DNA from: a virus
DNA length: 38,650 nucleotides
Virus record (IMG/VR): IMGVR_UViG_3300014325_000028
Span: 1 to 38,650 of that record
Strand: one strand, 5' to 3'
A program made the translations under genes and the position numbers. Below are positions 34,927 to 35,283 of this stretch, piece by piece. The first letter of the stretch is position 1. Every line of letters begins with the position of its first letter. The notes beneath the pieces were generated by a model. It did not search any database. It was given only the letters and a program-made list of their open reading frames with translations, and was not told where the DNA came from.

Positions 34927-35136
34927 GCATCGGTGGCGGAAAATTGGGAAGACGCATGCGTGAATGGCGCAGAGGGGTGAATGGAGAAGCCTAGCTGTAA
35001 GACAAGCGGTGTAAATACCCGGAAAGCTAGGATTCACTCAATTAGAAACTGAATGAAAATAATAACATCTATCCCCGCAAGGGTGGCCGCTAACATTCAG
35101 ACATAACTCATGTAGGTTCGAGACCTGCCCGATGCA
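34927..35136 (+). ncRNA. tRNA(Leu)-like RNA with a 125-nt structured insert
   Basis: GCATCGG (34927-34933) and CCGATGC (35129-35135) form a 7-bp acceptor stem. TG and a D-arm like that of tRNA-Leu (GCG ... TTGGGAAGA ... CGC, 34936-34955) follow the 5' strand. A standard T-arm (GTAGG-TTCGAGA-CCTGC, 35112-35128) precedes the 3' strand. An anticodon-like hairpin (TGCG/CGCA, 7-nt loop) lacks U33, so decoding is unlikely. The excess holds GTGAAT/ATTCAC stacked on CCTAGCT/AGCTAGG, CTGAATG/CATTCAG, and a CCC-GCAA-GGG tetraloop hairpin. CCA is not encoded. An intron-bearing tRNA is the alternative. Confidence 0.6.
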
Positions 35137-35213
35137 CAATGGCTAAAGGGAATGCCAGTTTCAATATCCCCCGTGTAGTCTTCCACAGTAAGAACGATAG
35201 CAACCAACGAAAT

Positions 35214-35243
35214 GGTGCTGGCAGCTCGGGAAAGACCGGCACC
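35214..35243 (+). ncRNA. Hairpin downstream of tRNA-like element
   Basis: GGTGCTGG and CCGGCACC form an 8-bp stem (one G-U) with a 14-nt loop, followed by CCC-TTA-GGG. The stretch 35137-35283 otherwise shows no frame and ends just before the start at 35284. It could be the 3' part of the same RNA or the leader of the annealing-protein mRNA. Confidence 0.4.
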
Positions 35244-35283
35244 CTTAGGGGTTAAGAAAGGCAAACACTTAAATAATATATAA

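Follow-up and report, generated by a model that had tools for sequence, protein, structure and literature searches.

Is a tRNA-like element of 210 nt in a viral genome a tRNA interrupted by an intron, a tRNA mimic with a role of its own, or neither? The element in question lies on the plus strand at positions 34927-35136 of a 38,650-nucleotide stretch of viral DNA (IMG/VR record IMGVR_UViG_3300014325_000028, positions 1 to 38,650; hereafter, the window). An earlier note on this DNA described a tRNA-Leu-like shell around a structured insert of about 125 nt and offered both a tRNA mimic and an unusual intron-containing tRNA as explanations. The shell and its insert hold up by direct reading, in scans for tRNA-like shells and in comparison with homologues. 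The element probably belongs to a new family of structured non-coding phage RNAs that have a tRNA-like shell, do not decode and are likely to be matured by host tRNA enzymes.

The evidence that carries this interpretation comes from the insert, which holds a core of about 125 nt, consisting of stems A, B and C and a pseudoknot, that is maintained by compensatory change. In the first 14 members, the shared core includes stem A of 5-9 bp, a purine-rich bulge, stem B and stem C, with the pseudoknot formed by a 6-bp helix that joins the loop of stem B to the inside of stem C. The covariation score for these 14 members is 0.731, compared with 0.239 for shuffled controls; for 34 distinct sequences, it is 0.740, compared with 0.202 after shuffling and at most 0.113 when the partners are slid. 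Thus, the covariation among homologues by which the earlier note proposed to judge its claim was found, and the two helices singled out there, CCTAGCT/AGCTAGG (stem B) and CTGAATG/CATTCAG (stem C), are both present and both supported by compensatory changes. The covariance model employed to search for members did not contain the pseudoknot, which nevertheless pairs at 6/6 positions in 36/36 members that span it. Its strands vary, from AGCGGT/GCCGCT in the window to AGTTCG/CGAACT, AGTAAG/CTTACT, AGCCGT/ACGGCT and others elsewhere. No reading frame is generally open across the core.

The nearest relatives of the window by the recT and exonuclease genes do not carry the same element. Some of these relatives have odd shells of other kinds, two with enlarged anticodon loops (L009, L010) and one that is tRNA-Ser-like (L017), and for this reason pattern scans were undertaken. 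Abnormally spaced tRNA D and T arms were detected in at least 120 viral contigs, and scans for tRNA-Leu-type D arms yielded three loci (L417, L422 and L425) with inserts that can be aligned to that of the window. Two scans for motifs of the insert, in which no tRNA feature was demanded, returned 10 and 39 viral loci, and copies of the core in Escherichia coli prophages were found by BLAST with one of the motif-scan loci as the query. A covariance model built from 14 members gives 37 matches among the loci tested (34 distinct sequences), where the 14 model members match by construction and the remainder are independent of the model but were gathered by motif. Most of the matches are in viral contigs, some are in E. 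coli prophages, and the window scores 115 bits. A DNA similarity search of the region against annotated phages produced only two spurious 29-nt matches, and the exact 3' end of the element was not found in viral contigs. In 398 Pseudomonadota genomes, a search for an exact pattern gave no match, which, given the E. coli prophage copies, indicates that the pattern is strict or that the copies are rare.

Taken by itself, the window element might pass for a decayed tRNA gene or a functionless chance fold: ARAGORN makes no tRNA or tmRNA (transfer-messenger RNA) call on it, and its folding energy stands out little from that expected (z = -1.7), a weak signal, so that the case for the element rests on the homologues. 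This explanation is contradicted by the compensatory changes, which extend throughout the core in unrelated phages. Furthermore, the scanner that requires an acceptor stem, a D arm and a T arm picks up the window element and finds no matches in 2.2 Mb of shuffled sequence. Decay or chance is, then, barely credible.

In most members, the core is enclosed in a tRNA-like shell, and in the window and several others, this shell is a tRNA-Leu cloverleaf, with the core at the position of the variable arm. An acceptor-like closing stem of 6-10 bp, with a T-type hairpin directly 5' of its 3' strand, is present in 26/37 members, and D arms of the canonical tRNA-Leu type and TTCRA loops occur in some. 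The enterobacterial members have a distinct D loop, GCTGAT, which by reading is complementary to the T loop ATCAGC; in one of the loci (L525), this pair is altered yet still complementary, TACTG/CAGTA (again by reading). A hairpin with a 7-nt loop occupies the anticodon position in about 12 members, with stems that vary and, in most cases, CG or GG at the end of the loop; these are not decoding loops. The window element itself has the acceptor stem, D arm and T arm of a decoding tRNA but lacks U33, as the earlier note had read it, and an anticodon, the loop being TGAATGG.

These features bear directly on the possibility that the element is an intron-containing tRNA-Leu, in which the shell supplies the exons and the core is a small intron of a new kind that splices itself or is spliced by enzymes. 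The tRNA-Leu type is indeed seen in several shells, and a similar phage tRNA-Leu shell (L041) does contain a true group I intron, which Rfam detects, providing a positive control. The window element has in common with that case a structured insert in a tRNA-Leu shell, but Rfam gives no match to it, group I or group II, even at E = 10, and no catalytic core was found. The insert, at about 125 nt, replaces the variable arm and lies outside the anticodon loop; by reading, the joined flanks do not yield a normal tRNA, as there is no decoding anticodon arm. In addition, the core occurs with D arms that are not of the tRNA type, as well as without a T arm. The insert position, the lack of a match to catalytic models and the absence of a recoverable anticodon arm together leave the intron unsupported and improbable. 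The other half of the earlier proposal, the tRNA mimic, is supported, given that the 37 matches share a covarying core, mostly within tRNA-type shells. The layout of the element is given in Table 1.

Table 1. Parts of the tRNA-like element in window coordinates.
Feature	Position	Strand	Basis
Whole tRNA-like RNA element, 210 nt	34927-35136	+	Shell scan; homologues; covariance model
5' acceptor strand GCATCGG	34927-34933	+	7/7 pairs with 35129-35135; direct reading
TG linker	34934-34935	+	Direct reading
tRNA-Leu-type D arm GCGGAAAATTGGGAAGACGC	34936-34955	+	Reading and shell scan; L417, L422 and L425 share the motif
Hairpin TGCG-TGAATGG-CGCA at the anticodon position, 7-nt loop without U33	34957-34971	+	Reading; about 12 members similar
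Stem A, 5' strand GGGTGAAT, partner 35032-35039	34975-34982	+	5-9 bp with differing sequences in 14/14 first members
Purine-rich bulge GGAGAAG, separates stems A and B	34983-34989	+	GRAGRAG-like segment recurs among homologues
Stem B, 5' strand CCTAGCT, partner 35025-35031	34990-34996	+	Two-sided changes at 7/7 pairs
Conserved loop GTAAGACA-(pseudoknot 5' strand)-GTAAATA	34997-35017	+	Alignment of homologues
Pseudoknot, 5' strand AGCGGT, partner 35086-35091	35005-35010	+	6/6 paired in 36/36 spanning members
Stem B, 3' strand AGCTAGG	35025-35031	+	Homologue alignment, covariation
Stem A, 3' strand ATTCACTC	35032-35039	+	Homologue alignment
Stem C, 5' strand CTGAATG, partner 35094-35100	35049-35055	+	97.9% of cells paired; two-sided changes at 6/7 pairs
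Conserved segment AAAATAATAAC	35056-35066	+	Alignment of homologues
Pseudoknot, 3' strand GCCGCT	35086-35091	+	Homologue pairing, covariation
Stem C, 3' strand CATTCAG	35094-35100	+	Homologue alignment, covariation
T arm GTAGG-TTCGAGA-CCTGC, 5 pairs including one G-U	35112-35128	+	Reading, shell scan, homologue shells
3' acceptor strand CCGATGC, followed by A at 35136	35129-35135	+	Direct reading

A short open frame, MAKGNASFNIPRVVFHSKNDSNQRNGAGSSGKTGTLRG, is located at window positions 35139-35255 and starts 3 nt past the discriminator base.

The comparison with known RNAs starts with tmRNA, in which tRNA-like ends close a pseudoknotted body that has no anticodon. The window element resembles tmRNA in these respects but differs in being about 210 nt long, in giving no ARAGORN or Rfam match and in having no generally open frame for a tag. 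The stable RNA C of phage T4 (species 1 RNA, rnaC) is, like several members of the family described here, a small phage RNA within a tRNA cluster; it has a perfect T arm near the 3' end and partial acceptor-like pairing (L261, 1409-1547). Unlike the case of the window element, the shell scan finds neither a D arm nor an acceptor match in RNA C, and its interior differs, with no core seen, although the covariance model was not applied to it. The shells of the phiC31 family and the entries annotated as 'tRNA-OTHER' keep, as in the window, the acceptor, D and T arms of a tRNA and have no normal arm for decoding, but their inserts are different and smaller, and the pseudoknotted core was not seen in them. 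Among RNAs described in the literature, the prophage small RNA (sRNA) svsR (PMC12803456), which is located at the 3' end of cI, is a different RNA, and the description of the Pas sRNAs (PMC13192938) does not fit the core RNA. A description of the core was not found in the openly licensed text of PubMed Central (PMC), to which the search was limited; within this limit, the family with the pseudoknotted core appears to be new.

Odd tRNA shells in phages form a wider set than the core family. In viral contigs, at least about 100 shells with ordinary D and T arms and about 100 of the tRNA-Leu type were recorded (L021-L140, L273-L500); in these, a highly diverse middle part of 34-92 nt replaces the decoding arm. 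In the Streptomyces phages phiC31, phiBT1 and their relatives (L262, L268), a shell that is unannotated or inconsistently annotated lies between genes 13 and 14; it has an enlarged anticodon arm, the stems of which appear to covary. In phage P1 (L553, approximately 735-960), two unannotated tRNA-like elements appear to lie 3' of tRNA-Asn and tRNA-Thr. Phage HK620 and E. coli prophages (L517, L520) have a shell with a short insert between Q and the holin gene, the 3' part of which matches in 632 of 5426 E. coli genomes. Analysis of gene neighbours around about 100 odd shells revealed no common partner, and the G3-U70 identity pair of alanyl-tRNA synthetase (AlaRS) is present in 7/95 among the matches listed, which makes no rule. 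Along with the shells of phiC31, P1 and HK620, the window element falls into this larger group of phage shells, for which annotation is poor and in which other domains stand in for the anticodon side.

Bacterial Y RNAs (YrlA) are non-coding and mimic tRNAs, and the window element might accordingly be a phage version of such an RNA, a partner of Ro60/Rsr and an RNA-repair system. In Chryseobacterium (L192, 3304-3412, and other loci), a conserved tRNA-like RNA with an enlarged anticodon side, the middle part being 50-60 nt, lies between rtcB and RNA-repair genes (RlaP), a neighbourhood that would suit such a role. The window element, however, differs from YrlA in layout and has no Rfam match and no Ro60 partner gene: TROVE/Ro60 genes are absent from the record of the window and from 50 records of the wider set (the host genomes were not searched), and RtcB is present in only 1 of these 50. 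A phage Y RNA is therefore very unlikely.

How, then, could such an RNA work? The shell would allow the transcript to be excised from the operon RNA by host RNase P and the 3' tRNA-processing enzymes, and the addition of CCA by the host would yield a stable, non-decoding RNA of about 210 nt. Indirect support for maturation by tRNA enzymes comes from the position of the P1 shell after tRNA-Asn and tRNA-Thr and from the wider set, where CCA directly follows the discriminator in 28 of the 95 ordinary-type odd shells among the matches listed, compared with about 1.5 expected. The tRNA-like face would then probably engage, in trans, a host factor that handles tRNAs, with the pseudoknotted core doing the specific work; we infer that the RNA would most likely inhibit a host activity directed at tRNAs, or serve as a decoy for it, during infection. 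A defence nuclease, a repair system and a translation factor are candidate targets, the choice among which is a guess. Charging of a Leu-type shell would be conceivable in principle, as leucyl-tRNA synthetase (LeuRS) needs no anticodon.

The genomic neighbourhoods are diverse. The window copy is preceded by small genes and followed by a recT-like gene (246 aa), located on the same strand 147 nt downstream, and an exonuclease-like gene; both names rest on tblastn relatives and reading, and Pfam gave no match. Other copies have HNH, helicase, methylase or repressor-like genes nearby (identified by reading), and some are inside large tRNA clusters (L417, L532, L538, L547). Frequent locations of the members are tRNA clusters and regions with early or recombination genes. 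Because the neighbouring genes vary, the core is not tied to any one gene.

Several observations weigh against a tRNA-mimicking RNA that acts in trans. Nine members have no T arm, with the closing stem apparently kept (by eye); the core can therefore do without tRNA mimicry. CCA is not encoded in the window copy, the CCA statistic describes the wider set and not the core family, and the core members have no partner gene in common. Finally, the element shares the strand of its operon and commonly ends 10-30 nt ahead of the next gene on that strand, which fits a role in cis, where the fold would serve for processing or as a leader, setting adjacent messages apart or controlling them, and the RNA would have no role once released. 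In Hafnia phages (L515, L516, L519), differing tRNA-like elements, one of them annotated as tRNA-Gly, occupy the same site upstream of an N-like gene. The proximity of the next gene and the Hafnia site make the cis-acting element the strongest rival, but the genes that follow the copies are not related to one another, 147 nt separate the window copy from the next gene of annotated size, the elaborate conserved core exceeds the needs of a cleavage site, and copies also reside within tRNA clusters. A purely cis-acting role accordingly seems unlikely, and we favour a non-decoding RNA, with its function as a decoy or effector against a tRNA-handling host factor being inferred.

More generally, and tentatively, phages might widely use tRNA bodies as scaffolds that offer processing, stability and access to host factors, with exchangeable domains on the anticodon or variable side, the window core possibly being one such module that counters a tRNA-directed host activity. 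Few RNA scaffolds in the cell are used as heavily as the one mimicked here, and the family with strong covariation that employs it, absent from Rfam, is present in diverse phages, including enterobacterial prophages. The defined ends, helices and pseudoknot make the role of anticodon-less phage tRNA-like RNAs, such as T4 RNA C and the 'tRNA-OTHER' entries, testable. If the core RNA counters immunity that is based on tRNA cleavage or tRNA repair, it would represent RNA-based counter-defence.
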